NCBI GenBank assembly: GCA_021780275.1
Contig: JAJXZC010000436.1
Coordinates: 1-21,637 of the forward strand
From: Pseudomonadota bacterium
Lineage (GTDB): Bacteria; Pseudomonadota; Alphaproteobacteria; Parvibaculales; Parvibaculaceae
Reading direction: 5' to 3'
Length of the DNA: 21,637 nt
Part shown: positions 86 through 17,386 of the stretch, in pieces
Numbering within the stretch: position 1 is the stretch's first letter
How the letters are laid out: the number at the start of each line of letters is the position of its first letter
Notes under the pieces: generated by a model
Seen by the model: only the letters and a program-made list of their open reading frames with translations
The model's database searches: none
What the model was told of the DNA's origin: nothing
Position numbers and translations under genes: made by a program

Positions 86-93
86 CTCGCCGT

Positions 94-331: not shown

Positions 332-1477
332 TCAAATAACAAGAAGAGGCTTGATTACTTTTCCCTCTTCCGCGTCAGCAAATGCTTCATTGATAAACTC
401 AAAGCTGTATTGAGAATAGAGCTTTTCGATCGGCAGCTTTCCCTCGCGGTAATATTCTATCAGTTCAGGAATGAATGTCTTGGGATCGGAATCGCCTTCT
501 GTAATCATTTTGACGGTCACACCGCGGACGAGCATGTCCATGATGTTGAGCGGAAGGCTGGCTTCGGGAGGCGCGAAGGCGAGCAGACCGAGCCGCCCCA
601 TCGGGAGCAATGTGCTGTGAGCCGTCGCAATGACGGTTGGAATACCCGTCGTGTCCAGCGCATGGGTGGCTCCGCCGGAAATCGCCTTGATTGCGGCGGC
701 AACATCCGATTCGGCTTTCGGGTCGATGACGTGGGTCGCTCCGACTTCCAAGGCGAGTTGGCGCCGTTTCGCGACTGGCTCAACCAGGATGATCATGGAG
801 GCGTCGGCAATTTTCGCCCCCATAACGGCGCTCAGACCAACCGAACCACCGCCAAATATGACGACCTTGTCGCCCTTCCCGACGGCGAGGGAATTCAGGA
901 TAGCGCCGGCGCCAGTTTGAATGCCGCAGCCGAGCGGACCGAGGAGCGCCAATTTGTCAGACTTAGGCACGACGACAGTATTTCGCTGGTTCGCGATCAC
1001 ATGGGTCGCGAACGACGACTGGCTGAAAAAGCGCGCATTGATTGGTTGTTCGCCCCTGTACATCGGGGTCGAGCCGTCGTCACGCGTGCTTGCAAAATTC
1101 TTGGCCATGAAGTTGTAACAATACGCCGGATGAGATTTCATGCAGTTGGGGCATCCGCCGCATGAACCGAAGCTGAGTACGACGTGGTCTCCGACCGTTA
1201 TGTCGGAAACATCGGTGCCGACAGCCTCCACAATTCCGGAACCTTCATGACCGAGTACGATCGGCATCGGCACCGGGAACGCTCCTTTGCAGACCACGTC
1301 GGTGTGACAAACGCCAACGCCGACGATGCGGACGAGAACCTCGTCGCTGCGCGGCTCCTGCAAAGACACGTCCTGGATGGCGAATTTTCCGTTGGCTTCG
1401 GAAAGGACCGCAGCGCGTCCCTTAACGGCCTTCACGCCTGCCACCGCTGCGTTGAAAAGACGATCGATCTGGTTCAT
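332..1477 (-). CDS. xylB: Zinc-dependent alcohol dehydrogenase, XylB/aryl-alcohol type
   Basis: This 381-residue medium-chain NAD-dependent alcohol dehydrogenase would oxidise the primary alcohol made by the neighbouring hydroxylase to the aldehyde. The catalytic zinc site is visible as Cys57 (GVCHTD), His77-Glu78 (GHEG) and Cys184 (GPLGCGIQTG). The structural zinc lobe is Cys106, Cys109, Cys112 and Cys120. The Rossmann motif GGGSVG is at 209-214. The pattern from GHEG through GPLGCGIQTGAG matches benzyl-alcohol dehydrogenase XylB and geraniol dehydrogenase GeoA as I remember them. The start at 1477 is preferred over an in-frame start at 1600 because AAGGA lies 8 nt upstream and the family begins near here. 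It follows the hydroxylase gene on the same strand by 91 bp, so co-transcription is likely. The exact alcohol is unknown: benzyl, cumyl, terpenoid or aliphatic. Confidence 0.9.
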   Translation of the reverse strand: MNQIDRLFNAAVAGVKAVKGRAAVLSEANGKFAIQDVSLQEPRSDEVLVRIVGVGVCHTDVVCKGAFPVPMPIVLGHEGSGIVEAVGTDVSDITVGDHVVLSFGSCGGCPNCMKSHPAYCYNFMAKNFASTRDDGSTPMYRGEQPINARFFSQSSFATHVIANQRNTVVVPKSDKLALLGPLGCGIQTGAGAILNSLAVGKGDKVVIFGGGSVGLSAVMGAKIADASMIILVEPVAKRRQLALEVGATHVIDPKAESDVAAAIKAISGGATHALDTTGIPTVIATAHSTLLPMGRLGLLAFAPPEASLPLNIMDMLVRGVTVKMITEGDSDPKTFIPELIEYYREGKLPIEKLYSQYSFEFINEAFADAEEGKVIKPLLVI

Positions 1478-1568
1478 CCCTGATATCCTTGTGGAAATGG
1501 AAGCGAGAGGACGGAATCCTTGATTTTTCATCGAGGCTTCGCGCTTGGTTACGTCATTGTGAATGAGG

Positions 1569-2678
1569 TCAGGCGGCGGCGCGGACCGGGCGCGCGTCAA
1601 CTTCCGAGAACCAGTCCGGCCAGCCGGCGGCGAGGTTTTGTTCGCGCGCGATCCTGCGTTCTTCGGCTGTGGCCTTGGTGAGGTCCCATTCTTTGAGCGC
1701 CGGCTTGGCGACAGAGTTTTGCCAAACTGGCGGAATCAAGGCCGTAAGGAAGCAGACGAACACGCTAGGCATTTTGACCGCCGAAGCGTCCGGAACCAGA
1801 ACGTGATACGGCTTGAACGAATCCAGATGGTGATCGGCATGATTGACGATCTCCCAGCCGAAGATGCGGCTCAGCGGGTGCAGGTGGTTCCAAACATGAC
1901 GGGCCGCGATCGGAGCGCCAGGAGCGCGGACGAGCCCGTAATGCTGGAAATAGTTGAAGGACTCGGCCCAAACGCGGGCGATGAACATCGCGAGCACGCA
2001 AAGTGCAACCGCATGCCCGCCGCCAATAAAATAAATCGGCGTCTGCATGATGATCATCATCGCTATCGCTTTCCACAGTCGATGGCCCAGCGACCAGCGG
2101 CCTTTGCCACGCTTTTCGAGGGCGTCGCATTCCGCGCGCAGGGAAGTGCGGGTGCTTTCCACGAGGGCGCCGACGGTAAAGCTGTAAAGGTCTTTGCCGC
2201 GAAGAGAGGTGTCGGAATCCGTAGTGGTGGCGACATCAATATGGTGGCCGATGACATGGGCGACGGAACGGGTGCAGTCGAAATAGACAATCTGACCGAC
2301 CAGCCCCAGGAAGCGCGAGAACCAGCCGCGCTGATGATATAGCTCATGCGTGACCGGAACCATCGGCACGACCGACAGCCACGCCACGCCACCGACAGCG
2401 CCGATTGTTTCAGCGGCTGTCATCCCCTGCGCGATGCGCCACGCGAAGATGAAATACATACCCATTCCACAGACGCTCGCAACATAGAGCGGCAGATTCG
2501 CCATGAACCTGTTGGGAATATTCCGCCTGGAATAGTCGCGCGGAAGCGAGGTGTCGATGATCATCAGCACCGGGAAACTGCCGATCGCGATGTAGACCCA
2601 TGGGCCGCCGAGATAGAGGCCGTAGCCGGCGAGTAGCTGAAGCGCCACCGGCAAAAAATATAGCGACATAGACAACAT
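1569..2678 (-). CDS. xylM: XylM/CymA-type membrane di-iron hydroxylase (AlkB superfamily)
   Basis: This 369-residue integral membrane monooxygenase hydroxylates a terminal or aryl methyl group using O2 and electrons from a ferredoxin-reductase partner. The histidine boxes that bind the di-iron centre are all present: HELYH (His111, His115), HVIGHH (His141, His145, His146), His246 in NYFQHYG, and NHADHH (His280, His283, His284). Hydrophobic helices fill residues 5-45, 60-85, 93-109 and 203-235. Length, the NYFQHYGLVR segment and the C-terminal AKP.L..WD...AT..ER..A motif are those of xylene monooxygenase XylM and p-cymene monooxygenase rather than long-chain alkane AlkB (about 400 residues). 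The start at 2678 has GGGAGGA 7 nt upstream. The gene diverges from the aldehyde dehydrogenase gene across 341 bp, and its likely reductase is encoded on the other strand at 4573. The substrate is inferred only. Confidence 0.92.
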   Translation of the reverse strand: MLSMSLYFLPVALQLLAGYGLYLGGPWVYIAIGSFPVLMIIDTSLPRDYSRRNIPNRFMANLPLYVASVCGMGMYFIFAWRIAQGMTAAETIGAVGGVAWLSVVPMVPVTHELYHQRGWFSRFLGLVGQIVYFDCTRSVAHVIGHHIDVATTTDSDTSLRGKDLYSFTVGALVESTRTSLRAECDALEKRGKGRWSLGHRLWKAIAMMIIMQTPIYFIGGGHAVALCVLAMFIARVWAESFNYFQHYGLVRAPGAPIAARHVWNHLHPLSRIFGWEIVNHADHHLDSFKPYHVLVPDASAVKMPSVFVCFLTALIPPVWQNSVAKPALKEWDLTKATAEERRIAREQNLAAGWPDWFSEVDARPVRAAA

Positions 2679-3019
2679 TGGAGAATCCTCCCTGTGCTTT
2701 TCCTTAGGACGGCGCCGTGGCGTTGATGGGCCACATTTCGTGAGGGCGCACTTGGTTGCGCGGCGCCTGCCCCGTCCAGAATCGTACGTTAGCGATGTTT
2801 TTGGGCCTCAGCCCCGCTCCAAAGTATTGGTCGGGACGGGCCTTTACTCAGGGCCACCGTCCTTTTTGGTCCTTATCCCATACTTAGGTCCGGCGGCCCT
2901 GGCGTTCCCGACGTCACATGATGGAGCGTCTTCGCCTAGGTCGTACGCCTGCGTATGATTGCGGCTTGGCCGACAAGAAGGAACGCGCCGGATTTCGGCG
3001 ACATTCAGGGAGTAGAGAT
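2679..3019. promoter_or_regulatory. Divergent promoter region of the hydroxylase and aldehyde dehydrogenase operons
   Basis: These 341 bp of non-coding DNA must carry promoters in both directions. Three copies of the pattern CYTAGGWC occur, at 2703-2710, 2883-2890 and 2935-2942; the last two are 52 bp apart, close to five helical turns. There are also an inverted repeat GGACGG/CCGTCC (2834-2839 and 2857-2862) and two CGTACG palindromes (2783-2788 and 2942-2947). I could not identify a convincing sigma-54 -24/-12 element or a strong sigma-70 promoter by eye. The LAL regulator encoded at 5773 is the natural candidate to act here. Confidence 0.55.
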
Positions 3020-4468
3020 ATGGCACTGGGACAGTCGGCGCTTCGCGCCGATGAGGTGGCCGTTCGCGCCGAAGATGTAGCTGGGATTCTCGCGGCTCAA
3101 AAAGCGGCAATTTTGACGCATGGGCCGTTGTCGATCCGTGAGCGCGAGGAATGGCTTGATCGGCTGATCGGCCTGATGGTCGATTTCAAGTCGGAAATCG
3201 TCGATGCCGTGAATCAGGACTTCGGGTGCCGCAGCCGCGAGGCGACTTTGATGGCGGATGTTTTCGCGGTCCTTGGCTCACTGAAGCTGGCGCGCGCGAG
3301 CCTCGACGAATGGGCTAAGCCGGTTCCTTACGAGGGAATGTTCCCCGACGCCAATGCCCAAGTGGAATATCATCCGCTCGGCGTTGTCGGCGTCATGAGC
3401 CCATGGAATTTTCCATTTAATTTGACTTTCGCTCCGTTGGCAGGGATCGTCGCCGCGGGCAATCGCGCAATGATCCGTCCATCGGAGCTCTCGCTGGCTT
3501 CGTCGGCCCTCATGGCTCGCATGATCGAAACGGCTTTCGCCCCGACGGAAATTGCGGTGATCAACGGCGGGCCGGAGGTGGCGCAGGCTTTTGCGAGCCT
3601 GCCGTTCGACCATCTGCTGTTCACAGGGGGTGGCGCCGTCGCTCGTCGCGTAATGCGGGCGGCCGCCGAGAATCTGACGCCTGTGACTCTTGAGCTTGGC
3701 GGAAAATGTCCTGTTGTCATTTCGCCGTCGGCGGCGGTCGATGACGCCGCCGCGCGCGTCCTCACGATCAAAACGCTCAATGCGGGCCAGATTTGCCTGG
3801 CGCCAGACTATGTTCTCGTTCCGGAGTCTCGCGCGAACGAGTTTGTGGCCGCGGCTAAGAAGGCCGTGGCGGCCATGTATCCAACTCTGGCGAGCAATCC
3901 CGATTACACATCGATCATCAACCAGCGTCAGTTTGATCGCCTGCAGGCGCTTCTGGCCGACGCGCGGGCGAAAGGGGCGGAAATCATAGAACTGAACCCG
4001 GCAGGTGAGAGCTTCTCACGCGAATCCCATCGACTCCCGCCGACGCTGGTCTTGAATCCTACTCCGAATATGGACATCATGCAGGAGGAAGTTTTCGGTC
4101 CGTTGCTCCCCGTGAAAACGTATTCTGCGATCGATCAGGCCATTGCTCACGTCAATTCCGGCGACAGTCCCCTTGCGCTCTACTATTTCGGCTCAGATCC
4201 GAAAGAAGAGCGAAAGGTTCTCGATCAAACCCGTTCCGGAGGCGTCACGATCAACGACGTCATGACTCATGCCTTCGCTGAAAATCTACCCTTTGGCGGC
4301 GTCGGCCCTTCGGGCATGGGTTCGTATCATGGCAAAGCCGGCTTCATCAATTTCAGTCATGCGCGTTCGATTTATCGTCAAGGCAAAGCGATCGAGGCCG
4401 AATACATGATCCGGGCGCCGTTTGGCGAACCGATCAGGCAGTTTCTTGACTCGGTCATCGTGAAGTAA
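3020..4468 (+). CDS. Aldehyde dehydrogenase, coniferyl-aldehyde dehydrogenase type
   Basis: This 482-residue NAD(P)-dependent aldehyde dehydrogenase would convert the aldehyde from the XylB-like enzyme to the carboxylate. Visible motifs are PWNFPFNL (128-135), FTGGG (201-205), the general base Glu225 in LELGGK and the catalytic nucleophile Cys259 in NAGQICLAPDY. A C-terminal LPFGGVGPSGMGSYHG segment is of the class-3/coniferyl-aldehyde dehydrogenase type. This differs from benzaldehyde dehydrogenase XylC of TOL plasmids, which has a different N-terminus. The start at 3020 is chosen because AGGGAG lies 7 nt upstream and the family N-terminus fits; an in-frame ATG at 2918 would add an atypical 34-residue leader. 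It is the first gene of the rightward operon, followed after 104 bp by the reductase gene. Substrate range is not readable from the sequence. Confidence 0.93.
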   Translation: MALGQSALRADEVAVRAEDVAGILAAQKAAILTHGPLSIREREEWLDRLIGLMVDFKSEIVDAVNQDFGCRSREATLMADVFAVLGSLKLARASLDEWAKPVPYEGMFPDANAQVEYHPLGVVGVMSPWNFPFNLTFAPLAGIVAAGNRAMIRPSELSLASSALMARMIETAFAPTEIAVINGGPEVAQAFASLPFDHLLFTGGGAVARRVMRAAAENLTPVTLELGGKCPVVISPSAAVDDAAARVLTIKTLNAGQICLAPDYVLVPESRANEFVAAAKKAVAAMYPTLASNPDYTSIINQRQFDRLQALLADARAKGAEIIELNPAGESFSRESHRLPPTLVLNPTPNMDIMQEEVFGPLLPVKTYSAIDQAIAHVNSGDSPLALYYFGSDPKEERKVLDQTRSGGVTINDVMTHAFAENLPFGGVGPSGMGSYHGKAGFINFSHARSIYRQGKAIEAEYMIRAPFGEPIRQFLDSVIVK

Positions 4469-4473
4469 GAGAG

Positions 4474-4494
4474 CCCCGTTTCTCTGGGACGGGG
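4474..4494 (+). promoter_or_regulatory. Small hairpin just after the aldehyde dehydrogenase stop
   Basis: CCCCGT (4474-4479) pairs with ACGGGG (4489-4494) around a 9-nt loop, starting 6 nt after the stop codon. It has no T-tract, so it may attenuate transcription or protect the upstream mRNA rather than terminate fully. Confidence 0.35.
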
Positions 4495-4506
4495 TCCAGC
4501 TTCCGG

Positions 4507-4538
4507 GGCGGCGAGCGCCAACGAGTACGCTCGCCGCC
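4507..4538 (+). promoter_or_regulatory. Strong 11-bp intercistronic hairpin before the reductase gene
   Basis: GGCGGCGAGCG (4507-4517) is perfectly complementary to CGCTCGCCGCC (4528-4538) with a 10-nt loop. All 11 pairs match and the stem is almost entirely G/C. No run of T follows, so it is probably an mRNA-stabilising or processing hairpin, or a leaky terminator that lowers expression of the reductase relative to the aldehyde dehydrogenase. Confidence 0.55.
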
Positions 4539-4572
4539 AGCGATATAGGTCCGCATAAGGGTGTTGCCGGGC

Positions 4573-5637
4573 ATGACACGGTTTTGGCGCAAATGGTTCG
4601 TGAAAGCGAAGCCACAATTTGCAATTCTTGAACCCTTCGGCGTGGAAGTCGCCGTGGGGCCCGAGCAGACATTGTTGGAAGCGGCCCTCGCGAAAGGCGT
4701 TCCATTTCCACATAACTGCACAGTTGGAACTTGCGGCTCATGCAAGTGCCGCCTCATTTCGGGCGACGTGCGGGCCGGGGTCGATTTCGGTTACACCTTG
4801 TCGAAAGAGGAAATTCAGGCGGGCTACATTCTAGCCTGCCAAGCGCATCCGCTTTCCGCGGTCGTCGTCAAGGTTGAAAATGCCGGCGCGGATGCGCCCG
4901 CGCCAGAAAAATTCAGCGGGCGAATTCGTAGCCGTTCCGAACTGACGCATGACATTTTGTCGGTCGTCATCGAACTCGACCGACCGATGAAATATGTGGC
5001 TGGACAATATGCCGACATCCAGACGGGAGATCTTCCGCCTCGGTTCTATTCCTTCGCGGATCCGCCCGAGCGCGGGGGGCGCCGCGAGGTTAGCTTTTTT
5101 ATTCGCAAGACGCCAGGCGGAGCCTTCACCGAGCCGCTTTTCGCCGGGGCGTTTGACGGACGGGAGCTTGCTATCGATGGACCTCACGGCAGCTTTTATT
5201 TGAGGTCTGGAGATGGGCCTCTGATATGCCTTGCAGGCGGCTCAGGCTTAGCTCCGTTGATGAGCTTGCTAATGGACGCGCGCAAAAAGAATATCAAGCG
5301 TCCCTGCGTGCTGCTGTTTGGCGCCCGCTCTCAGCGTGACCTTTACATGCTTGACGCGATCGAAGGCATGGGCGCGGACTGGCTGAGCGATTTCAAATTT
5401 ATTCCGGTTCTCTCAGAGGAGCCGCTGGACAGTTCGTGGCGCGGGCGCCGTGGGCTTGTGACCAAGGCTCTCGCAGAGCTGCTCGGCGCTGATCCGGAAA
5501 TCGTCAGGAGCGCACAGTCCTATATGTGCGGGCCGCCGCCGATGATCGACAGCGCTGTGTCGGTTCTCGTTAAGGCGGGCGTAGATATCGGCGACATCCA
5601 TTACGATAAATTCACGGATGTCCGACGGCCGAGTTGA
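4573..5637 (+). CDS. xylA: XylA-type ferredoxin-NADH reductase, electron donor of the hydroxylase
   Basis: This 354-residue soluble flavo-iron-sulfur protein passes electrons from NAD(P)H through FAD and a plant-type [2Fe-2S] cluster to the membrane hydroxylase. Cluster ligands are Cys49, Cys54, Cys57 (CTVGTCGSC) and Cys89. The FAD-binding RFYS motif is at 157-160. The nucleotide-binding AGGSGLAPLMSLL begins at 221 and the CGPPPM motif at 319. The order ferredoxin then FAD then NAD and the length match XylA and the p-cymene monooxygenase reductase. The ATG at 4573 is preferred; an upstream in-frame GTG at 4561 abuts the AAGGG sequence and leaves it no spacing. In TOL and cym systems the reductase gene is next to the hydroxylase gene on the same strand. 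Here it lies 1.9 kb away in the opposite operon. Confidence 0.92.
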   Translation: MTRFWRKWFVKAKPQFAILEPFGVEVAVGPEQTLLEAALAKGVPFPHNCTVGTCGSCKCRLISGDVRAGVDFGYTLSKEEIQAGYILACQAHPLSAVVVKVENAGADAPAPEKFSGRIRSRSELTHDILSVVIELDRPMKYVAGQYADIQTGDLPPRFYSFADPPERGGRREVSFFIRKTPGGAFTEPLFAGAFDGRELAIDGPHGSFYLRSGDGPLICLAGGSGLAPLMSLLMDARKKNIKRPCVLLFGARSQRDLYMLDAIEGMGADWLSDFKFIPVLSEEPLDSSWRGRRGLVTKALAELLGADPEIVRSAQSYMCGPPPMIDSAVSVLVKAGVDIGDIHYDKFTDVRRPS

Positions 5638-5672
5638 AGCTCTTTTGTCGAGCCGATCGGGTCCGGCCGCCA

Positions 5673-5718
5673 GGCGCCCCATACTTTTGGCCGGGTGGAT
5701 AAAAACGTCCGGGGCGCC
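5673..5718. promoter_or_regulatory. Inverted repeat upstream of the LAL regulator gene
   Basis: GGCGCCCC (5673-5680) and GGGGCGCC (5711-5718) are perfect complements 30 bp apart, in the 135-bp gap between the reductase and regulator genes. Each arm contains the GGCGCC palindrome. It could be a pair of operator half-sites for autoregulation or a long-loop terminator for the reductase operon. Confidence 0.4.
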
Positions 5719-5772
5719 ATATTCCAACGTGACAGCAACGCCTTAAGATTGCTGCGCGGAGGAAACGCATCA

Positions 5773-8553
5773 ATGAAGGAATTTCCCCGGCGGGATGAGC
5801 CACGGGAAGGCGCATTTGTGCTGGCCGGCGCTTGCGGGAGCCCAGACAACTTGGTCGGCGAGGCGGCGGTTTTCGCTATGCGTCCCCCGCCTGTCTATTC
5901 GTTTCGACCTGTCGAGACGTCCATATTCGCAGCAGTGGCTGCACGGGAGACATTGCCGAAAATCACGACGGTGATCGCCCCGCCCGGCTATGGCAAGACT
6001 GTCTTTCTTTCGGAGCTTTACAGGAAATATCAGAAGGCAGGCGTCCATTGCCTTTGGATCGCCTTAGATGATCGTGACAGCAATCTTGGAAGTCTTTTGC
6101 GCCTGCTCGAAGCAGCGGTCCGCGTTCAGCCCGCTGAAGGGCACATTTATGAGAAATTTTCGCGTTCAGACGCCTTCGAACGAATCGAGAACATCCGTTT
6201 GCGCATCGCGGCGGGCTCACGACCGACGATTCTTTTCATCGACAACATTGACTTTTGCAAGGAGACTGGCGTCGACACTGCGCTGAATGCGCTCGTCTTC
6301 AATAGCCCAGACTGGTTCAAGCTTTTTATCTCGTCGTCCTCAACGCCCGTGCCGTTCAATGCGGGCCGGGCGCATCTCGAATTAAACCTGCAGACGATCA
6401 AGGCCGCCGACTTGAGCTTCGACAAAAAGGCGACTGGCGAACTCTTCGATGAGGCGGGCCTGACCGATTTGAACCCTGCGGTGCTGGCCGAAATCGTGGA
6501 TCGGACGGAAGGGTGGCCGGCGGCCATCCGCTTGCTGCAACTGACGGCGCAGGCGGGAAATGCGGTGAACGGCGGGATCGATCTTCTCGTCGGCCATGAG
6601 GAACACATCTCCGATATCCTTTCGGAGCGATTGATCGCTTCCTTCCCTGAAGGCTTGGTCAATTTCCTATACGAGATTGCGGAGTTCCGGCATTTTTCGG
6701 CGGAACTCGCGGAAATCGCAACCGGGAACCCGCATTCCGCAACTTGGATCCAGTTCTTGGTCGATCACAACATCATGATCATACCGGTAGACCAAAAAAG
6801 GCGGTGGTTCCGCTTTCACACCCTGTTCCGGCAGTACCTGATCGAGGAGGCGCGACGCAAATGTCCGGCGAGCCGCCGACATGAAACTCACGCCAACGCG
6901 GCTCGTTGGCTAATGCGCCACGGCGATCAGTCCAGCGCCTTCGATCTCGCAATCGCGGCCGGCAATTTGGAATTGATTGCTGAAATTCTCGAACGCGCCG
7001 CCTGTTCGTTGGTGCGAGAACAGGGAGATACGTCCACGTTTATCGACTGGATCAAGCGCGCGTCGGAGGCCGGTGTGAAGCGCGGACCGCTCGCGACCTT
7101 CTGGTATGCGTGGGCGTTGCTTTTCGAACGCCGCTTTGCCGAAGCCAGTGATGAAATTCGGGCGGCCTATGTCGAGATCGCGAAAGTCGAAGATTGTCCC
7201 ACAGCGAAAGCGTTGCGTTCAAAACTTGCGATAGCCGAAATCGCGGCTTCGATCCATCTGGACGCGACGGATAGTGCGATCAAGGTCGCCGAACGGTGGC
7301 TTGAGCAAAATCCCGATGGCGAGCCGTTTGAAATAGGCGTCGCCGCCGCCGGCGGACTTGGCATCGCCCGGTTTTCGAAACAGGATTACACTACCGCACG
7401 CTTTTCGATTCAGATCGCGCAGGCGGCAATATCGCGGTCCGACAGCATTTATGGACGCTGCTGGGTGGCGGCCTTGGATGCCATTCGCGAAATCGTCCAA
7501 GGGAATCCTGCCACCGCGATCCGAGAATTGGCGGCGTTGGAAGGCGCCGCAAGGATGCAAATCGGTCCAAATTCGAGCATCTTATCGGTTCTGGCGACTG
7601 TTCGAGCGCGCGGGCTCTTGGAAGCAGGTGAGTTTGCCGAGGCCGAAAGCTTGATTGCTGAGCATCTCGATCGTGCGGCCGCCAATGGCGTCCCCGACAC
7701 AACCTGGGTTGGACTAGAGGTGGCCATCGCGTCCGTTGTTAGCGGGCGATCGGTCTTTACATTGGACGAATTACGTTCAATCGTTAAAACATATCCGAAG
7801 CGCATCGGCGTACTTTTCGAGCTCAAATTGATAAGAGAATTGGCGGAGTCTGGACAGGCCGAAGCGGCAATCAATCGCGCTGAGGAGTGGGGCTGGAGCG
7901 TCAAGAGAGGCTGGCCCGAAAGCCTGTCGATGAATGCCTCTGAAATGGAGCAGTCCGCGGCCAGAATGACAGGCGGAGTCCTATTGTTGGCATCTGGCCA
8001 TTTCAATGCCGCGCATGAGCTTTTCCAACAGGAAATTCGGCGCGCTGTCGAAACCGGGCGTCGTCTGGATCAGATCGAACTCTTCCTTTCTAGCGTCGAT
8101 GCGTGTTTTCGGATCGACGCGCGTGCGACAGCCCTCAGGGCCTTTACGAGGGCGATCATGCTGACGACGAAGCGCGAAATCTACCGACCTTATATGAAAC
8201 GCCAGAAATTGATGGCCTTCATCCACGAGAACTCGAAGCCGAAAGAACTTGGCTTAACGAATATGGACGAGCTAGGGACGCTGGCGCATATCTTCGGACT
8301 TTCCGGTCTGCAGAAAGGCGCCACTGGCAGTACTTCAAAAAATGGCGAAGGCGTTGTCGCTCCGCCTACGCCTCGTGAAATTGAGTTGCTACATTATCTC
8401 GATGCCGGGCTCGACAATTCCCAGATCGCTGAACGCCTGTCGGTCTCGATCCGCACCATCAAATGGCACCTCTCCAATCTCTATTTCAAACTGGACGTGA
8501 AGAACCGGTCGGCGGCGGTCGCGAAAGGCCGCGCGCTCAGGCTATTGCCATGA
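5773..8553 (+). CDS. LAL-family (MalT/AlkS-type) LuxR transcriptional activator
   Basis: This 926-residue, STAND-type ATP-dependent regulator has the layout of MalT and of AlkS, the activator of the Pseudomonas alkane operon. The Walker A motif is APPGYGKT (69-76) and the Walker B motif is TILFIDNID (152-160). A winged-helix/arm region follows. The long helical middle (about 380-830) looks like TPR-type repeats for inducer sensing. The LuxR helix-turn-helix is at about 861-926 (TPREIELL...NSQIAERLSVSIRTIKWHL). The start at 5773 has GGAGGA 9 nt upstream; an in-frame codon at 5695 would add 26 residues without a ribosome-binding site. It is 135 bp downstream of the reductase gene on the same strand, which suggests that it senses the substrate and activates the divergent oxidation operons. 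The inducer is unknown. Confidence 0.92.
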   Translation: MKEFPRRDEPREGAFVLAGACGSPDNLVGEAAVFAMRPPPVYSFRPVETSIFAAVAARETLPKITTVIAPPGYGKTVFLSELYRKYQKAGVHCLWIALDDRDSNLGSLLRLLEAAVRVQPAEGHIYEKFSRSDAFERIENIRLRIAAGSRPTILFIDNIDFCKETGVDTALNALVFNSPDWFKLFISSSSTPVPFNAGRAHLELNLQTIKAADLSFDKKATGELFDEAGLTDLNPAVLAEIVDRTEGWPAAIRLLQLTAQAGNAVNGGIDLLVGHEEHISDILSERLIASFPEGLVNFLYEIAEFRHFSAELAEIATGNPHSATWIQFLVDHNIMIIPVDQKRRWFRFHTLFRQYLIEEARRKCPASRRHETHANAARWLMRHGDQSSAFDLAIAAGNLELIAEILERAACSLVREQGDTSTFIDWIKRASEAGVKRGPLATFWYAWALLFERRFAEASDEIRAAYVEIAKVEDCPTAKALRSKLAIAEIAASIHLDATDSAIKVAERWLEQNPDGEPFEIGVAAAGGLGIARFSKQDYTTARFSIQIAQAAISRSDSIYGRCWVAALDAIREIVQGNPATAIRELAALEGAARMQIGPNSSILSVLATVRARGLLEAGEFAEAESLIAEHLDRAAANGVPDTTWVGLEVAIASVVSGRSVFTLDELRSIVKTYPKRIGVLFELKLIRELAESGQAEAAINRAEEWGWSVKRGWPESLSMNASEMEQSAARMTGGVLLLASGHFNAAHELFQQEIRRAVETGRRLDQIELFLSSVDACFRIDARATALRAFTRAIMLTTKREIYRPYMKRQKLMAFIHENSKPKELGLTNMDELGTLAHIFGLSGLQKGATGSTSKNGEGVVAPPTPREIELLHYLDAGLDNSQIAERLSVSIRTIKWHLSNLYFKLDVKNRSAAVAKGRALRLLP

Positions 8554-9793: not shown

Positions 9794-9818
9794 GCGAAGC
9801 AATCGAAATGAGACCAAA

Positions 9819-10718: not shown

Positions 10719-10741
10719 GCGGGTTCGGTCGCATTGAGAAA

Positions 10742-10775: not shown

Positions 10776-10781
10776 CTGGCG

Positions 10782-12281
10782 TCAATTCATCGTCGGAATA
10801 ACGAAACTGGCGCCGTCTTTGACGCCGGACGGCCACCGCGCCGTCACGGTCTTGGTCTTGGTATAGAAGCGGAAGGCGTCCGGGCCATGCTGGTTGAGGT
10901 CGCCGAAGGCTGAACGCTTCCAGCCGCCGAAGGTGTAATAGGCGATCGGCACCGGGATCGGCACGTTGACGCCGACCATGCCGACATTGACGCGCGACGC
11001 GAAATCGCGCGCGGCGTCGCCGTCGCGGGTGTAAATCGCGACGCCGTTGCCATATTCGTGGTCATTCACGATGCGGAGAGCGTCATTGTAGGACTTTTGG
11101 CGGGCGACCGACAGCACCGGGCCGAAGATCTCCTCTTTGTAGATCCGCATATCCGTCGTGACGTGATCGAACAGGCAGCCGCCGAGATAGAAGCCGTTTT
11201 CATAGCCTTGCAGCGAGAAATTGCGGCCGTCGACGAGCAGTTTCGCACCTTCCTGAACGCCCACGTCGATATAGGATTTCACCTTTTCGAGATGGGCGCG
11301 GGTGACGACGGGGCCATAATCCGCAGTGGCGTCCGTCGAGGGGCCGATCTTCAGCGATTCGACGCGCGGAATCAGACGCTCCACAAGGCGGTTCGCCGTC
11401 TCTTCGCCAACTGGAACGGCGACTGAAATGGCCATGCAGCGCTCGCCGGCTGAGCCGTAGCCCGCGCCGATGAGCGCGTCGACGACCTGATCCATGTCGG
11501 CGTCAGGCATGACGACCATGTGGTTTTTGGCACCGCCGAAGGCCTGCACGCGCTTTCCATGGGCGGTCCCTCGCGAGTAGATATATTCGCCAATCGAGGT
11601 GGAGCCGACGAAGCCGATGGCCTTGATATCTGGATCGTCGAGAATGGCGTCCACGGCTTCCTTGTCGCCATTGACGACATTGAGGATGCCGGCTGGCAAT
11701 CCGGCCTCGATCATGAGCTCGGCGAGGCGCAGCGGCACGCCGGGATCGCGTTCCGACGGCTTGAGGATGAAGGCATTGCCGGCGGCGATCGCCGGGCAGA
11801 ATTTCCACATTGGGATCATCGCGGGGAAATTGAAGGGCGTGATTCCCGCGACGACGCCGAGAGGCTGGCGCATTGAATAAATGTCGATGCCGGGGCCCGC
11901 GCCGTCGGTATATTCGCCTTTGAGCAGATGGGGCGCACCGATGCAGAATTCGGCGACCTCAAGACCACGCTGGATGTCGCCGCGCGCGTCGGGGACGGTT
12001 TTGCCGTGTTCGCGGGCAAGCAACTCCGCGAGTTCATTCATGTCGCGGTTGAGCAGTTCGACGAATTTCATCAGGACGCGGGCGCGCCGTTGCGGATTGG
12101 TCGCGGCCCACGCCAGCTGCGCGTCGCGGGAATTCTCCACGGCGGCGCGCACTTCCGCGGCACTAGCGAGAGGGACGCGAGAAATGACCTCGCCGGTCAT
12201 CGGCTTATAGGCGTCGCTGAAACGGCCGGATGTCCCTTTGACGTGCTTCCCGCCGATGAAATGCTTCAGTTCGGCAACCAT
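10782..12281 (-). CDS. mmsA: Methylmalonate-semialdehyde dehydrogenase (CoA-acylating)
   Basis: This 499-residue CoA-dependent aldehyde dehydrogenase converts methylmalonate semialdehyde to propionyl-CoA and CO2, the last step of isobutyrate/valine breakdown. Family marks are TPFNFPAMIPMWKFC (148-162), FVGSTSIGEYIY (224-235), FGGAKNH (248-254) where other ALDHs have the general-base Glu, and the nucleophile Cys282 in AGERCMAIS. The C-terminal FGGWKRSAFGDLNQHGPD is typical. The start at 12281 has GGGAGGA shortly upstream. It diverges from the acyl-CoA synthetase gene over 280 bp, so the pathway is split into leftward and rightward operons that share a control region. Confidence 0.96.
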   Translation of the reverse strand: MVAELKHFIGGKHVKGTSGRFSDAYKPMTGEVISRVPLASAAEVRAAVENSRDAQLAWAATNPQRRARVLMKFVELLNRDMNELAELLAREHGKTVPDARGDIQRGLEVAEFCIGAPHLLKGEYTDGAGPGIDIYSMRQPLGVVAGITPFNFPAMIPMWKFCPAIAAGNAFILKPSERDPGVPLRLAELMIEAGLPAGILNVVNGDKEAVDAILDDPDIKAIGFVGSTSIGEYIYSRGTAHGKRVQAFGGAKNHMVVMPDADMDQVVDALIGAGYGSAGERCMAISVAVPVGEETANRLVERLIPRVESLKIGPSTDATADYGPVVTRAHLEKVKSYIDVGVQEGAKLLVDGRNFSLQGYENGFYLGGCLFDHVTTDMRIYKEEIFGPVLSVARQKSYNDALRIVNDHEYGNGVAIYTRDGDAARDFASRVNVGMVGVNVPIPVPIAYYTFGGWKRSAFGDLNQHGPDAFRFYTKTKTVTARWPSGVKDGASFVIPTMN

Positions 12282-12561
12282 TCTGTCCTCCCAAGTTGGT
12301 TTCGGCCTTATTGACGAAGCGCGGCGCGGTTCTCAACGCCCAAAGGCGCGGAATAATTGTGCGGGAATGCCGCGTCAGGGGCGTCACACCGCTCATGTTG
12401 CCGTGTTTGCGCAGATCAGTCTTGCTTTTTCGCCCATTTTCGTCGTCGGCCTTGCCGCTATCCTCTGCCGCCAATTCGCGCGCCAGACGCGAATGCCAAT
12501 CGCCCGCCCGATCCTCGCCACTGACGCGATCGAGGGCGATGATCAATTTGGGAGGAACAGG
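12282..12561. promoter_or_regulatory. Divergent intergenic region between mmsA and the acyl-CoA synthetase gene
   Basis: These 280 bp must hold the promoters for mmsA and for the rightward synthetase operon. A GGAGGA ribosome-binding site for the synthetase is at 12551-12556. I see no strong dyad or clear -35/-10 pair. The region stays open in the synthetase frame from 12238, but that upstream stretch does not resemble the family, so I treat it as non-coding. Confidence 0.4.
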
Positions 12562-14451
12562 ATGGGCTACCGCGCCATATATCGGCAGTCACTCGATCAC
12601 CCTGATGAATTTTGGAGCGAGGTCGCCTCGGGCATTTCCTGGTCGAAGAAATGGGAAAAGATCTGCGACCGATCGAATGAGCCTTTCGTGCGCTGGTTTT
12701 TCGGCGCCGGGTTGAACACCTGTTACAATGCGCTCGACCGCCACGTCGAGAACGGGCGCGCCAATCAGGCAGCGCTGATTTACGATTCGCCAGTCACTGG
12801 AACGATTCGCAAATTTACCTATGCCGAATTGCTAGACGAGGTCGCGCGGCTTGCCGGCGGACTTTCCGCTCGTGGCATCGGCAAAGGCGACCGCGTCGTC
12901 ATTTACATGCCTGGCGTGCCCGAGGCGGTGATGGCTATGCTGGCCTGCGCGCGGCTCGGCGCCATTCATTCGGTCGTTTTTGGCGGTTTCGCCGCCAGCG
13001 AACTCGCGACCCGCATCGATGACGCGCAACCGAAAGCGATCCTTTCGGCTTCCTGCGGCGTCGAGGCTACGCGCATCGTGCCCTACAAACCGATGCTCGA
13101 CCAAGCGATCGAAATGGCGCGGCACAAGCCGAATTTCTGCGCCATTCTGCAGCGTCGTCAGGTGGCGGCCCCTCTGATCGCCGGGCGCGATCTCGATTGG
13201 AGCGAAATCATTGGGGCACCTGTTCCCCCTACACCGGTTGGGGCCAGCGATCCTCTTTATATTCTTTATACGTCCGGCACGACGGGGCAGCCCAAGGGCG
13301 TCGTTCGCGACAATGCCGGCCACGCCGTGGTCCTGAAATGGACCATGGACAATCTTTACAACACCCAACCCGGTGAAACCTTCTGGGCAGCGTCCGACAT
13401 CGGATGGCAGGTCGGCCATTCCTACATTACGTATGGACCGTTGCTGCATGGGGCGACAGCGGTGCTTTTCGAGGGTAAACCCGTCGGCACACCTGACGCG
13501 GGAACCTTCTGGCGGCTGATCGCGGATCATCGGGTGGTCGTGTTGTTTACGGCGCCGACCGCTTTGCGCGCGATTCGCCGCGAGGATCCCGAAGGCCACT
13601 TCGTCAAAAAGTACGACCTTTCCAGCCTACGGGCCTTGTTTTTGGCGGGTGAACGCACCGATCCTGAAACGTTGGAATGGGCGCGAACACACCTCGGTGT
13701 TCCCGTGATTGATCATTGGTGGCAGACCGAAACGGGTTGGCCCATCGCCGGCAACCCTTTGGGAATTGAGGCATTTCCAATCAAGCCTGGCTCGACGGCA
13801 GTCGCCCTTCCGGGATGGGACGTGCGGTGCGTCGACGACGGCAATCACGAGGTTCCGCGTGGGACGCAGGGCAATATCGTCATCAAGCTGCCGATGGCAC
13901 CGGGTGCGTTGCTGACCCTTTGGAATGCCGACGAGCGCTTCGTCAAATCTTACATGACGGCGCATCCCGGCTATTACTCCACCGGAGACGCCGGCTATAT
14001 AGACGAGGACGGCTATATTTACATTATGAGCCGGACAGACGACGTCATCAATGTCGCAGGCCATCGCCTCTCGACGGGTGCGATGGAAGAGGTGCTGGCG
14101 TCTCATCGCGATGTCGCGGAATGCGCTGTAATTGGTCCGGCCGATGAACTGAAGGGTCAGGTTCCTGTTGGTCTCGTCGTCCTAAAGTCGGGTGTCGATC
14201 GTGATCACGAGACGATCAAGGTCGAATTGGTGCAATTGGTGCGCGATCGCATTGGTCCTGTCGCCGCGTTCAAGCTTGTGACGATCGTCGATCGTTTGCC
14301 GAAAACACGCTCCGGCAAGATCCTGCGAGGCACCATGCAGAAAATTGCCGATTCCTCTGAGTGGAAAATGCCAGCGACCATCGACGAGCCGGGAGTGCTC
14401 GACGATATCATGGCGGCGCTGCAGACTCTCGGTTTCGCTCGGAAATCTTGA
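12562..14451 (+). CDS. PrpE-type short-chain acyl-CoA synthetase (isobutyrate/propionate)
   Basis: This 629-residue AMP-forming synthetase of the acetyl/propionyl-CoA synthetase group would activate isobutyrate to isobutyryl-CoA. Its N-terminus (YRQS..HPDEFW, then FVRWFFGAGLNTCYNALDR) is that of PrpE-type enzymes. The AMP-binding signature YTSGTTGQPKG is at 236-246 and the C-terminal catalytic lysine is Lys586 in RSGKILRG. The start at 12562 is set by GGAGGA 5 nt upstream and by the length, about 628 for PrpE. It heads an operon with an acyl-CoA dehydrogenase, mmsB and a hydratase. As I recall, Pseudomonas mms clusters carry a similar synthetase gene, supporting an isobutyrate role over propionate or acetate. 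Confidence 0.9.
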   Translation: MGYRAIYRQSLDHPDEFWSEVASGISWSKKWEKICDRSNEPFVRWFFGAGLNTCYNALDRHVENGRANQAALIYDSPVTGTIRKFTYAELLDEVARLAGGLSARGIGKGDRVVIYMPGVPEAVMAMLACARLGAIHSVVFGGFAASELATRIDDAQPKAILSASCGVEATRIVPYKPMLDQAIEMARHKPNFCAILQRRQVAAPLIAGRDLDWSEIIGAPVPPTPVGASDPLYILYTSGTTGQPKGVVRDNAGHAVVLKWTMDNLYNTQPGETFWAASDIGWQVGHSYITYGPLLHGATAVLFEGKPVGTPDAGTFWRLIADHRVVVLFTAPTALRAIRREDPEGHFVKKYDLSSLRALFLAGERTDPETLEWARTHLGVPVIDHWWQTETGWPIAGNPLGIEAFPIKPGSTAVALPGWDVRCVDDGNHEVPRGTQGNIVIKLPMAPGALLTLWNADERFVKSYMTAHPGYYSTGDAGYIDEDGYIYIMSRTDDVINVAGHRLSTGAMEEVLASHRDVAECAVIGPADELKGQVPVGLVVLKSGVDRDHETIKVELVQLVRDRIGPVAAFKLVTIVDRLPKTRSGKILRGTMQKIADSSEWKMPATIDEPGVLDDIMAALQTLGFARKS

Positions 14452-14502
14452 CTGTAAGGCGGGCTCCGTTTCGGACGGATCGCCAGATCACTGGATCAGA
14501 AG

Positions 14503-15678
14503 ATGATGGATCATGTTTCGCCGGATACGATCCGGCAGTTCGACCTGAACGAAGAACAGCGCGCCATTCGAGAAATGGCGCAGAGTTTCGCGCAGGAAGA
14601 GCTCGCGCCTCGGGCGATCGAATGGGATCAGGAAAAACATTTCCCGATCGACGTCCTTCGCAAGGCCGCTGCCCTCGGCATGGCAGGGATTTATACGCGC
14701 GAGGAATTTGGCGGGTCCGGCCTTACCCGGCTCGACGCGGCCCTAATTTTCGAAGCTTTGGCTTCCGGCTGCCCTTCGGTCGCGGCCTATGTGTCGATCC
14801 ACAATATGGTCACGTGGATGCTCGACCGGTTCGGCGATGAGGCGCAGCGGGCGAAATTCGTTCACTCGCTTTGCACGATGGATCGTTTCGGCTCGTATTG
14901 CCTCACGGAGCCTGCTGCGGGCTCCGACGCCGGGGCGTTGAAAATGCGCGCGGCGAAGGATGGCGACGCCTATGTCCTGAACGGCGTCAAGCAATTCATC
15001 TCTGGCGCCGGAACGTCCGACGTCTATATCGTTATGGCCAGGACCGGCGATGCCGGACCGGCCGGCGTGTCCGCCTTTATCGTTGAGAAAGACACGCCCG
15101 GCCTTTCCTTCGGGGCCAATGAGAAAAAAATGGGTTGGAATGCACAGCCGACTCGGCAAGTGATCTGCGAGGATTGCCGTGTTCCGGCGTCCAATCTGCT
15201 TGGCGTTGAGGGCCAGGGTTTCAAGATCGCCATGGCGGGTCTCGACGGCGGACGCCTCAACATCGCAGCTTGTTCGCTCGGTGGCGCTCAGGCTGCGCTC
15301 GATAAAGCCCTGTCCTATATGACCGACCGCCAGGCTTTCGGTCGCCGGCTCAATGAATTCCAGGCCCTGCAATTCCGTCTGGCAGACATGGCCATCGATA
15401 TCGAGGCCTCACGGACTTTCCTGTGGCGCGCGGCCAGCGCGCTGGACGCGAAAGATCCCCGCGCCACGCAGTTCTGCGCGATGGCCAAAAAATTTGTCAC
15501 CGATGCCTGTTTCAACGCGGCAAACGAGGCGCTGCAGCTTCACGGCGGATACGGCTACCTCTCCGAATATGGGGTCGAGAAGATCGTCCGGGACCTACGC
15601 GTCCATCAGATCCTCGAAGGAACCAACGAAATCATGCGCGTCATCGTCGCGCGCAAGTTGATCGAATCCGCGAAATAA
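14503..15678 (+). CDS. Acyl-CoA dehydrogenase, isobutyryl-CoA dehydrogenase type
   Basis: This 391-residue FAD-dependent dehydrogenase would oxidise isobutyryl-CoA to methacrylyl-CoA, passing electrons to ETF. The FAD/substrate motif YCLTEPAAGSDAGALK is near 130-150, RQAFGRRLNEFQALQF marks the C-terminal domain, and the catalytic base is Glu372 in ILEGTNEIMR. The sequence is closest in pattern to mammalian ACAD8 and bacterial valine-pathway enzymes. Two adjacent ATGs (14503 and 14506) are possible starts and the ribosome-binding site is weak (AGAAG). It begins 51 bp after the synthetase and is followed 14 bp later by mmsB. Short-branched-chain or butyryl specificity cannot be excluded. Confidence 0.93.
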   Translation: MMDHVSPDTIRQFDLNEEQRAIREMAQSFAQEELAPRAIEWDQEKHFPIDVLRKAAALGMAGIYTREEFGGSGLTRLDAALIFEALASGCPSVAAYVSIHNMVTWMLDRFGDEAQRAKFVHSLCTMDRFGSYCLTEPAAGSDAGALKMRAAKDGDAYVLNGVKQFISGAGTSDVYIVMARTGDAGPAGVSAFIVEKDTPGLSFGANEKKMGWNAQPTRQVICEDCRVPASNLLGVEGQGFKIAMAGLDGGRLNIAACSLGGAQAALDKALSYMTDRQAFGRRLNEFQALQFRLADMAIDIEASRTFLWRAASALDAKDPRATQFCAMAKKFVTDACFNAANEALQLHGGYGYLSEYGVEKIVRDLRVHQILEGTNEIMRVIVARKLIESAK

Positions 15679-15692
15679 GGATGGAGTTCGTT

Positions 15693-16589
15693 ATGGCGCA
15701 AATTGCTTTCATCGGCCTTGGCAATATGGGGCTGCCCATGGCGCTGAACTTGGCCAAGGCTGGCCATCAGGTCGCCGGTTTCGATTTTTCCTCGGTCGCA
15801 ATGGACAAGGCGCGCGAAGGCGGAATCCTGGCCAGCGCATCCGGTTCGGAGGCGGTCTGGAGCGCGGATGTGGTCGTGACTATGCTGCCGTCCGGCAAGC
15901 ATCTGCTCGGCGCTTTGAACGGCGACACCGGGCTTCTGGCGGCGGCCAAACCCGGAACCCTGTTTATCGATTGCTCGACCGTCGACATTTCGAGCGCACG
16001 CGCCGCGCACGAGGCCGCCGCCGCGGCCCGAATGAAATCGGTCGATGCCCCGGTTTCGGGCGGCGTCGGCGGCGCTGGCGCCGGCACGCTTACGTTCATG
16101 ATTGGCGGCGAGACTGAAGTCGTTGAGGCAGCCAGGCCGGTCCTCTCCGCCATGGGCAAGAAGCTCGTGCATTGCGGCGCGGCTGGAGCCGGGCAGGCCG
16201 CGAAAATATGCAACAATATGATCCTGGGCATTTCGATGATCGCTGTTTCCGAAGCTTTCGTGCTCGGCGAGAAACTCGGACTTTCGCATCAGGCGCTGTT
16301 TGACGTCGCGTCGACTTCGTCTGGCCAGTGCTGGTCTCTTACGTCATATTGTCCGGTGCCCGGTCCTGTGCCGACCAGCCCGGCCAATAATCAATACAAG
16401 CCCGGCTTCGCCGCTCCGCTGATGCTCAAGGATTTGAAACTTGCCGAAGAAGCGGCCCACGACGTGTCCGCGCTGACCGCATTGGGGCAGCACGCCACGC
16501 GGATCTATGAGGAATTCGTTGCGTCTGGCGGGGACTCTTCCGATTTCTCGGGTGTTATTAATTCCATTCGCACCGCATCTGGAGCCTGA
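15693..16589 (+). CDS. mmsB: 3-Hydroxyisobutyrate dehydrogenase
   Basis: This 298-residue NAD-dependent beta-hydroxyacid dehydrogenase converts 3-hydroxyisobutyrate to methylmalonate semialdehyde, the substrate of MmsA. The N-terminal dinucleotide site is [12 protein letters not shown] (6-17), the substrate loop is DAPVSGG (118-124), and the catalytic lysine is Lys171 with Asn175 in [14 protein letters not shown]. The HIBADH-type tail with SS..NQYKPGF and LMLKDL is present. The start at 15693 is chosen because GGAG lies 6 nt upstream; the ATG at 15681 has no room for a ribosome-binding site. The 5-bp gap to the hydratase gene indicates a tight operon. Confidence 0.96.
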
Positions 16590-16594
16590 GAACA

Positions 16595-17386
16595 ATGGCC
16601 GAGTCACAACTTCGTAATTATGAAACCCTGCTAGTCGAACAGCGCGGCCGTGTTGCCCTCGTGACGCTCAATCGCCCGCAGGCGTTGAATGCGCTCAATG
16701 TTCAGAGCGCCATTGACATGGCGGACGCTCTCGCCAAGCTCGACGAGAGCGAAGAAATCGGCTGCATCGTTATTGCTGGCTCGCAGAAGGCCTTCGCGGC
16801 CGGCGCGGACATTAAGGAGATGCAAAACCTTTCTTATATCGACGCCCATCGCCTCGACTGGTTTCATCTCTGGGATCGCTTGGCGCAGGTTCGCAAACCG
16901 ATTGTTGCGGCCGTGTCCGGCTTCGCGTTGGGCGGCGGCTGCGAGTTGGCGATGATGTGCGATTTCGTCATTGCCTCCGAAACAGCGAAGTTTGGACAGC
17001 CTGAAATCAAGCTCGGCGTCATGCCAGGCATTGGCGGATCGCAGCGGCTCACCCGAGCGGTCGGCAAGGCGAAGGCGATGGATATGTGTCTCACGGGCCG
17101 CATGATGGACGTCAACGAGGCTGAGCGCTCGGGCCTGGTATCTCGCGTGGTCCCCGTTGATCGCCTCATGGATGAGACGATGGCGGCCGCGACGGCGATC
17201 GCCGCCATGTCGCTACCGGTCGCGCGATTGACGAAGGAAGCGGTGAATGTAGCCTTCGAAATGCCGCTGAGCCAAGGCGTGCGCTTCGAGCGACGGGTCT
17301 TCCAATCCCTGTTCGCCCTAGGCGATCAGAAGGAAGGCATGGGCGCTTTTGTCGAAAAGCGGACGGCAAGATTTTCGAACGCATAA
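16595..17386 (+). CDS. Enoyl-CoA hydratase, probable methacrylyl-CoA hydratase
   Basis: This 263-residue crotonase would hydrate methacrylyl-CoA to 3-hydroxyisobutyryl-CoA. The oxyanion-hole segment [11 protein letters not shown] is at 66-76. Both catalytic glutamates of true hydratases are present: Glu117 in [11 protein letters not shown] and Glu137 in [15 protein letters not shown]. The start at 16595 lies 5 bp after the mmsB stop, with GGAG within the mmsB 3' end as ribosome-binding site. Position between dehydrogenase and hydrolase steps supports methacrylyl-CoA, although straight-chain crotonyl-CoA activity is common in this family. Confidence 0.94.

Follow-up and report, generated by a model that had tools for sequence, protein, structure and literature searches.

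Gene content of the window

We analysed positions 1 to 21,637 of contig JAJXZC010000436.1 (assembly GCA_021780275.1), from an alphaproteobacterium of the family Parvibaculaceae. This stretch of 21,637 bases, called here the window, has a G+C content of 53–65% per kb. It carries genes resembling those for the oxidation of ring methyl groups, followed by genes for the degradation of isobutyrate and, at the right edge, by genes of a plasmid-type backbone. From left to right, the window encodes an alcohol dehydrogenase and an XylM-like hydroxylase (both on the minus strand), an aldehyde dehydrogenase, an XylA-like reductase and a LAL/MalT-type regulator (all plus), a 3-hydroxyisobutyryl-CoA hydrolase (HIBCH, minus), a LysR regulator (plus), MmsA (minus) and a PrpE-like ligase (plus). 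An acyl-CoA dehydrogenase (ACAD), MmsB, an enoyl-CoA hydratase (ECH), a TetR regulator and an AI-2E family transporter follow on the plus strand, and the minus strand then carries a broken toprim gene, a thermonuclease and a hypothetical gene without a start (Table 1). The oxidation and isobutyrate genes are intact open frames, and their family matches span most of each protein.

A first-pass annotation, made from the sequence alone, had placed an XylM/XylA/XylB-like set with an aldehyde dehydrogenase beside genes for all six activities from isobutyrate to propionyl-CoA, at 332–17386. Both sets were confirmed as intact frames with family matches, and the coordinates are correct. That annotation did not include the three interspersed regulators (LAL, LysR and TetR) or the plasmid-type right edge. 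The ACAD8-type dehydrogenase, the hydratase, HIBCH, MmsB and MmsA needed beyond the ligase are all present. A reading in which HIBCH was missing from the window was ruled out, since the minus-strand frame at 8593–9648 is the hydrolase. The solved structure closest to the ACAD is 1rx0, that of ACAD8, the isobutyryl-CoA dehydrogenase.

Table 1. Features of the window, with the matches on which each assignment rests (percentages are identities).
Feature	Coordinates	Strand	Evidence
XylB/benzyl-alcohol-type Zn alcohol dehydrogenase	332..1600	-	Pfam ADH_N/ADH_zinc_N; PDB 5tnx, 1f8f; 61% Xanthobacter, 64% Zavarzinia
XylM/CymAa-type membrane di-iron methyl hydroxylase	1569..2678	-	Pfam FA_desaturase 48.5 bits; LB400 CymAa 50%; Xanthobacter 69%
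Aldehyde dehydrogenase, MdlD/steroid-aldehyde-dehydrogenase-like, not CymC-type	2918..4468	+	71% Xanthobacter; 27% CymC
XylA/CymAb-type 2Fe-2S/FAD reductase	4561..5637	+	51% LB400 CymAb
MalT/LuxR-type (LAL) regulator	5695..8553	+	Pfam GerE and AAA; NF003420 200.6 bits, below its cut-off of 537; 46% beside the Xanthobacter module
3-hydroxyisobutyryl-CoA hydrolase (HIBCH)	8593..9648	-	NF004127 430 bits, cut-off 274; PDB 4hdt 322 bits
LysR regulator	9819..10718	+	62% beside mmsA in locus L163; at least 45% in 6 of 40 ACAD neighbourhoods; adjoins mmsA in relatives
MmsA, CoA-acylating methylmalonate-semialdehyde dehydrogenase	10782..12281	-	TIGR01722 662 bits, cut-off 448.5
PrpE-like acyl-CoA synthetase of the "Q-type" clade (Gln at the acyl-pocket position); proposed isobutyrate-CoA ligase	12562..14451	+	
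Isobutyryl-CoA dehydrogenase (ACAD8-like)	14503..15678	+	PDB 1rx0 490 bits, next 342; some homologues carry the name isobutyryl-CoA dehydrogenase
MmsB, 3-hydroxyisobutyrate dehydrogenase	15693..16589	+	TIGR01692 395.5 bits, cut-off 291.6
Enoyl-CoA (methacrylyl-CoA) hydratase (ECH)	16595..17386	+	NF004517 426 bits, cut-off 396
TetR regulator, 3' of the ligase operon	17494..18129	+	25% (146 aa) to the TetR encoded in the cmt block of Xanthobacter
Methylocystis-type backbone	19812..21635	-	toprim 19812–20542, thermonuclease 20539–21144, start-less hypothetical 21147–21635; 41–72% to three Methylocystis plasmids

The start of the alcohol dehydrogenase gene is uncertain, and its listed frame may include a spurious N-terminal portion. 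The closest solved structures of this enzyme are 5tnx and the benzyl alcohol dehydrogenase 1f8f, and that of the aldehyde dehydrogenase is the steroid aldehyde dehydrogenase 9nxl (426 bits). At 4507–4538, the aldehyde dehydrogenase gene is separated from that of the reductase by a perfect inverted repeat of 11 bases whose loop has 10 bases. The AI-2E family transporter (18481–19542), which lies after the TetR gene and before the backbone, has no evident role in the pathway. Scans of the window for tRNA genes and Rfam families gave no match.

The oxidation genes and their relatives

The hydroxylase and reductase are homologous to those of the cym/cmt operons of Pseudomonas putida F1 and Paraburkholderia xenovorans LB400, where the same three steps lead to the acid. 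The hydroxylase, with the His-rich motifs HELYH, HVIGHH, HVWNH and HADHH, is 49.6% identical to CymAa of LB400 over 361 aa, and the reductase is 50.7% identical to CymAb over 353 aa. Plasmid genes annotated xylM match the hydroxylase at 38–41%, below its 50% to CymAa, and the window is without any xyl lower-pathway gene. The window also differs from the operons of F1 and LB400: its alcohol dehydrogenase is a medium-chain dehydrogenase/reductase (MDR) instead of the short-chain type (SDR) of CymB, for which the window gave no match at 1e-5, and its aldehyde dehydrogenase is of another class. Both cymD and the cmt genes are absent from it (no match at 1e-5 for six cmt queries taken from the loci of LB400, Dyella and Pseudomonas nabeulensis), whereas a LAL gene lies beside the oxidation genes and the whole isobutyrate pathway follows.

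We gathered relatives of the hydroxylase with an alignment-based scan of genome contigs (84,980 species by its description). The scan gave 130 confirmed matches, of which the best 80 were kept, corresponding to 78 distinct loci, most of them flanked by no more than 10 kb. The closest relative among these best 80 is that of Xanthobacter oligotrophicus 29k (contig C7, 69%), whose locus also matches the aldehyde dehydrogenase (71%), XylA (63%), the alcohol dehydrogenase (61%) and the LAL regulator (46%) of the window. The same 68-kb contig encodes, at about 9–18 kb from XylM, cmtAa (46%), cmtAb (61%), a cmtB-like SDR (57%) and a TetR gene. It also encodes two extradiol-dioxygenase-like proteins (one 31% identical to CmtC), an HsaD/BphD-like hydrolase and a 2-keto-4-pentenoate-hydratase-like protein, all four scoring below the curated NCBIfam cut-offs. 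In Zavarzinia aquatilis, one stretch of about 30 kb (contig C12, at about 459–488 kb) encodes XylM (55%), the aldehyde dehydrogenase (63%) and XylA (60%), then the cmt genes in the order cmtF, cmtC (39% over 143 aa), cmtB, cmtAb (60%) and cmtAa, then the alcohol dehydrogenase (64%) and, where the sequence examined ends, a LAL match (35% over 264 aa). The cmtAb match was listed with internal TGA codons, yet a 423-aa open frame spans it. Both genomes thus have the window's set of hydroxylase, reductase, alcohol and aldehyde dehydrogenases and LAL regulator (55–71%, the latter 35–46%), and unlike the window they have ring-cleavage genes with it. The cmt labels of the frames of the LB400 locus were set by position and length, and are consistent with the Pfam matches of their relatives. 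In Acidocella, a cmtAb-like gene (57%) and XylM are on different contigs. IMG/VR contained no XylM relatives that we could find.

A tree of 94 hydroxylases, from which loci failing an open-reading-frame length and frame filter, such as L008, were left out, grouped the window with the metagenome proteins P0001–P0004, then with P0012 and P0013, and then with Xanthobacter together with P0005 and P0006. The 19-row clade of the window also takes in Acidocella and the Zavarzinia metagenome-assembled genome L013 (a long branch whose placement is unsure). The presence of cmt genes changed six times on this tree, against 15.8 in shuffles, where the label had been added by hand from other analyses for L004, L061, L074 and L038.

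The p-cymene reading of the oxidation genes is reasonably grounded in these comparisons, and gains support because close XylM relatives, those of Xanthobacter and Zavarzinia, have cmt-type genes on the same contig; the use of p-cymene by these two bacteria is itself putative. A different methyl-bearing cyclic compound, such as limonene, xylene or a diterpene fragment, might be degraded by the module via CoA thioesters, with the isobutyrate genes joining late. Many XylM relatives adjoin homologues of ACAD, ECH and AMP ligases, and 64 of the 78 loci lack the pair of cmtAb (at least 50%) and cmtC (at least 38%) within 10 kb of XylM. An AMP ligase, a MaoC protein and an HpcH/HpaI lyase are likewise encoded beside XylM in Xanthobacter. 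We nevertheless regard this alternative as improbable: cmt-type genes lie on the XylM contigs of the closest relatives for which wider surroundings were read, and the window has no further beta-oxidation gene.

The first-pass annotation had also raised the direct oxidation of a small branched alkane or alcohol to isobutyrate. With a substrate such as isobutane or isobutanol, every required enzyme would be in the window, where there is no ring-cleavage gene. We found no support for this reading and consider it very improbable, as the hydroxylase belongs with CymAa-type enzymes, 14 of whose 78 loci have the cmtAb–cmtC pair, the alcohol dehydrogenase is of the benzyl-alcohol type, and the aldehyde dehydrogenase is similar to those acting on aromatic or steroid aldehydes. 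The relatives point to methyl groups of aromatic compounds or cyclic terpenes.

Three observations concern the surroundings of these relatives. LAL/MalT-type regulators (matches of at least 500 aa) occur near XylM-like genes in 14 of the 78 loci, including the cym locus of LB400 (L041), and the words LuxR and MalT are absent from the main text of PMC5224996. In Xanthobacter, the genes between XylM and the cmt-type block (L004:4302–8601) encode an AMP ligase, a MaoC protein, an HpcH/HpaI lyase and an acetyl-CoA hydrolase/transferase, reminiscent of itaconate or citramalyl-CoA breakdown. On a plasmid of Sphingopyxis macrogoltabida (L001), an XylM relative (54%) is accompanied by a reductase, aldehyde and alcohol dehydrogenases and a cluster for the degradation of CoA thioesters, and the downstream route there appears to differ.

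The isobutyrate genes resemble valine clusters, with an added ligase

Homologues of the isobutyrate cluster are common. ACAD matches at 1e-120 were found in 159 of 385 genomes sampled from the class. Among the neighbourhoods of the top 40 listed, several of them on short contigs, genes at least 45% identical to those of the window were MmsB in 32, MmsA in 10, LysR in 6 and ECH in 4, and HIBCH occurred in 30 (at least 38% over at least 80 aa; range 38–50%). As in the window, valine (mms) clusters such as that of plasmid pAB510d of Azospirillum sp. B510 combine genes for MmsA, MmsB, the isobutyryl-CoA dehydrogenase and a LysR regulator. The alphaproteobacterial clusters differ from the window in one respect: none of the 40 neighbourhoods had a match to the acyl-CoA ligase at 30% (nor to XylM at this threshold), whereas in the window the ligase heads the operon of ligase, ACAD, MmsB and ECH genes (12562–17386). 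A CoA ligase is required for free isobutyrate but not for the breakdown of valine, which proceeds from a keto acid. The presence of a free-acid ligase inside the isobutyrate operon therefore counts in favour of side-chain salvage.

The ligase is nearest to propionate ligases, although it reaches neither of their curated cut-offs (NF007815, 729 bits for a cut-off of 955; TIGR02316, 672 bits for 827.4), and it also misses those of the acetate ligase families. Among solved structures it matches 5gxd with 933 bits, the next scoring 444.5. We aligned it to Acs of Salmonella enterica, whose V310 and T311 line the acyl pocket. At the V310 position the window's ligase has Gln (motif DIGWQVGHSY). None of 42 other ligases (loci L122–L161, L061 and L065) has Gln there, the pocket motif being VV in 37, AV in four and IV in one. 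We then built a tree of 135 ligases by a quick method, with 118 homologues, the window, two CymE-type ligases and 14 other PrpE proteins (P0126, P0204 and 26 of 40 PrpE neighbourhoods were left out). A single branch (SH-aLRT 92) separated the 74 ligases with Gln from all the others, among them both of the CymE type. One homologue of this Q-type clade is named, that of Agrobacterium deltaense (P0160). A DNA pattern for Q-type ligases, which does match the window, had no hit among 397 Hyphomicrobiales genomes or among 250 loci.

Ligase homologues as such are widespread: 166 of the 385 genomes of the class sample at 1e-150 (best identity among the listed rows 68%), and 287 of 397 genomes from the family of genome G623 at 1e-250 (best 65%). 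We examined 40 alphaproteobacterial neighbourhoods of such homologues (57–68%), 36 picked from the upper part of the list with one short contig skipped and four from Zavarzinia, Xanthobacter (two) and Acidocella. None had MmsA at 40%, HIBCH at 30% or ACAD at 45%, and at 30% there were one MmsB-family and one XylM-family match. By eye, the closest ligase–ACAD pair on one contig in the listed rows lies about 62 kb apart. In two of 30 listed plasmid matches of the ligase (Variovorax and Mycobacterium), we found no valine genes beside it. From the 40 neighbourhoods it follows that the ordinary PrpE does not belong to valine clusters.

The ligases beside the cym genes of Dyella and P. nabeulensis also belong to the PrpE family. 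In Dyella (L065) the order is cymB, cymC, cymAa, a 170-aa frame, cymAb, cymD, the ligase, cmtAa, cmtAb and cmtC. The ligases of P. nabeulensis (L061) and Dyella, on which we based the CymE-type comparison in place of the CymE of F1, are 44–45% identical to that of the window. They pass TIGR02316, the equivalog model for propionate-CoA ligases (1047 and 1058 bits, cut-off 827.4), and also NF007815, just pass NF001208, a wider subfamily of acetate-CoA ligases (663 and 670.5 bits, cut-off 657), and miss TIGR02188, the acetate-CoA ligase equivalog (658 and 667 bits, cut-off 724.95). We suggest, with considerable doubt, that the Q-type clade consists of dedicated isobutyryl-CoA synthetases, that this clade and CymE are independent recruitments of the PrpE family for the salvage of isopropyl side chains, and that the chain became joined to a p-cymene module on a methanotroph-type plasmid.

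The window is probably plasmid cargo

The right edge of the window matches the backbones of three Methylocystis plasmids (M. bryophila pDSM21852-1, MJC1 unnamed3 and M. heyeri H2 unnamed1) in the hypothetical protein (41%), the thermonuclease (61–69%) and the toprim protein (62–72%, in two pieces), and it keeps their order of these three genes. Therefore, the window is probably cargo on a Methylocystis-type plasmid or on an element derived from one. Among the rows listed for a collection of plasmids, Methylocystis accounted for the best 13 of 15 matches of the toprim protein and the best 11 of 15 of the thermonuclease. Beyond toprim, the content of the Methylocystis plasmids varies from one to another and differs from that of the window; in all three, searches for MmsB (at 1e-20) and ACAD (at 1e-60) were negative. 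The toprim/DUF7146 gene, situated where the backbone gives way to the cargo, is broken: its frame is lost near 20,390 and the last ~55 residues are absent after 19,812. The backbone genes may instead be a relic within a chromosome. Genome G623 has two thermonuclease matches (66%), and its own MmsB–MmsA and ACAD–HIBCH genes are on its largest searched contig. An origin in sphingomonads was rejected, as the backbone matches Methylocystis and the named ACAD homologues, at 74–79%, include Rhodoblastus and Beijerinckiaceae.

A proposed route from p-cymene to propionyl-CoA

Given the identities and order of the genes, the plasmid-type backbone, the cmt-type genes near relatives of the oxidation set and the free-acid ligase in the operon, we put at slightly better than even the chance that the plasmid cargo encodes two sections of the same catabolic pathway, one that degrades p-cymene or a closely related p-isopropyl aromatic. 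What we propose beyond these observations is the substrate, the specificity of the ligase, the joint use of both halves and the presence of ring-cleavage genes off the contig. XylM and XylA would hydroxylate the ring methyl group of p-cymene, and the alcohol and aldehyde dehydrogenases would convert the product to p-cumate, the corresponding acid. Enzymes of ring dioxygenation and meta-cleavage, presumably encoded beyond the left edge (the window ends 331 bases past the alcohol dehydrogenase gene) or elsewhere in the host, would release free isobutyrate. The PrpE-like ligase would convert this to isobutyryl-CoA, and dehydrogenation by the ACAD8-type enzyme, hydration by ECH, thioester hydrolysis by HIBCH and the action of MmsB and MmsA would yield propionyl-CoA. 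The LAL protein is the probable regulator of the oxidation genes. The idea of an isopropyl-bearing aromatic with salvage of the side chain, already put forward in the first-pass annotation, is supported by the cmt-type block on the Xanthobacter contig, by the oxidation and cmt blocks within about 30 kb in Zavarzinia, and by the free-acid ligase.

Two studies describe the release of free isobutyrate in p-cumate breakdown, at the CmtE step, and the presence in the cym operon of P. putida F1 of cymE, a ligase gene without an assigned role (PMC5224996, PMC4097962). In LB400 grown on p-cymene, a protein annotated as 3-hydroxyisobutyrate dehydrogenase increased 2.1-fold according to Table 2 of the former (PMC5224996). 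This rise fits a coupling of the two halves weakly, the family being broad.

Are the two halves coupled?

The two halves could instead be unrelated pieces of cargo, a cym/xyl-type module and an ordinary valine cluster, each with its own substrate and regulators. We consider this the lesser possibility, though a real one. The valine cluster is common in alphaproteobacteria, as the 40 ACAD neighbourhoods show, and none of the 78 XylM loci has it: within 10 kb there was no MmsB or HIBCH at 30% or more and no MmsA or ACAD at 45% or more, while the ligase occurred at 40% in two. Opposite orientations and separate regulators also speak for this reading. Against this stand the free-acid ligase within the isobutyrate operon, which valine breakdown does not need and which the 40 comparison clusters lack, the apparent presence of XylM and this ligase together on a second, diverged contig, and the fact that the second half consumes the very acid that p-cumate breakdown yields.

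The second contig comes from metagenomes, where we took co-location from the equal size of the longest contig behind each protein and not from the contigs themselves; the usual placement of the Q-type clade is known from such contigs only. We compared the sizes for 120 listed homologues each of XylM, the ligase and ACAD with 600 shifted controls. XylM P0004 (79%) and ligase P0125 (78%) both have 29,067 bases, and matches occurred in 2 of the 600 controls at 20 kb or more and in 84 at 5 kb or more. By equal size only, a metagenome contig of this length appears to carry the hydroxylase and the ligase together. For the ligase and ACAD, three sizes were equal (50,930, 5,316 and 91,356 bases; 74–92% identity), and three were reached in none of the controls. 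Whether the pairing is limited to one genome, which the first-pass annotation had held would count against it, is thus answered neither way: the 78 XylM loci speak for such a limit within 10 kb, and the 29,067-base contig speaks against it.

Several further results weigh against a single route. The lists of XylM and ACAD homologues shared no contig size, and no listed ACAD is paired with the contig of 29,067 bases. Long contigs with one half only appear to exist: one of 65,324 bases (XylM P0002, 85%) has no listed ligase or ACAD partner, and that of 50,930 bases (ligase and ACAD, 92%) has no listed XylM partner. In Xanthobacter and Zavarzinia the ligase and valine genes are on contigs other than that of XylM. 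Three separate regulators are spread across the halves, and we saw no shared operator across the intergenic stretches; of 13 such stretches, four have one palindrome each, none alike by eye, a reading made without systematic motif comparison. The absence of the valine genes from the XylM loci and of ring-cleavage genes from the window belongs here too, as do the two dehydrogenases, which are not orthologues of CymB and CymC, and the failure of the ligase to reach the cut-offs of its nearest families. The 40 ligase neighbourhoods are of another clade, with Val, Ala or Ile at the pocket, and are silent on where the window's clade is usually placed. Finally, LB400 grows on p-cymene without cymE, according to PMC5224996.

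The published CymR operator is absent from the window at up to three mismatches. Scans of positions 1–19900 gave 6 promoter and 16 terminator sites, against 6.2 and 24.1 in shuffles. The TetR gene at 17494 was considered as a counterpart of the TetR gene in the Xanthobacter cmt block and rejected for its low identity (Table 1).

Significance

Each half of this cargo is already known. What is new is the joined set, with dehydrogenases other than CymB and CymC, the ligase clade and the plasmid setting. Our literature searches (p-cymene, p-cumate or cumene, isobutyrate, cymE and Methylocystis plasmids), which had most subscription papers outside their reach, did not find this combination. A cym-type module joined to a PrpE-like ligase and an isobutyrate chain would give a simple and testable answer to the question of what becomes of isobutyrate after p-cumate breakdown. 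In the collection searched, the nearest relatives of this type of plasmid belong to methane-oxidising Methylocystis, and such cargo would widen the range of compounds that hosts of this kind may use.

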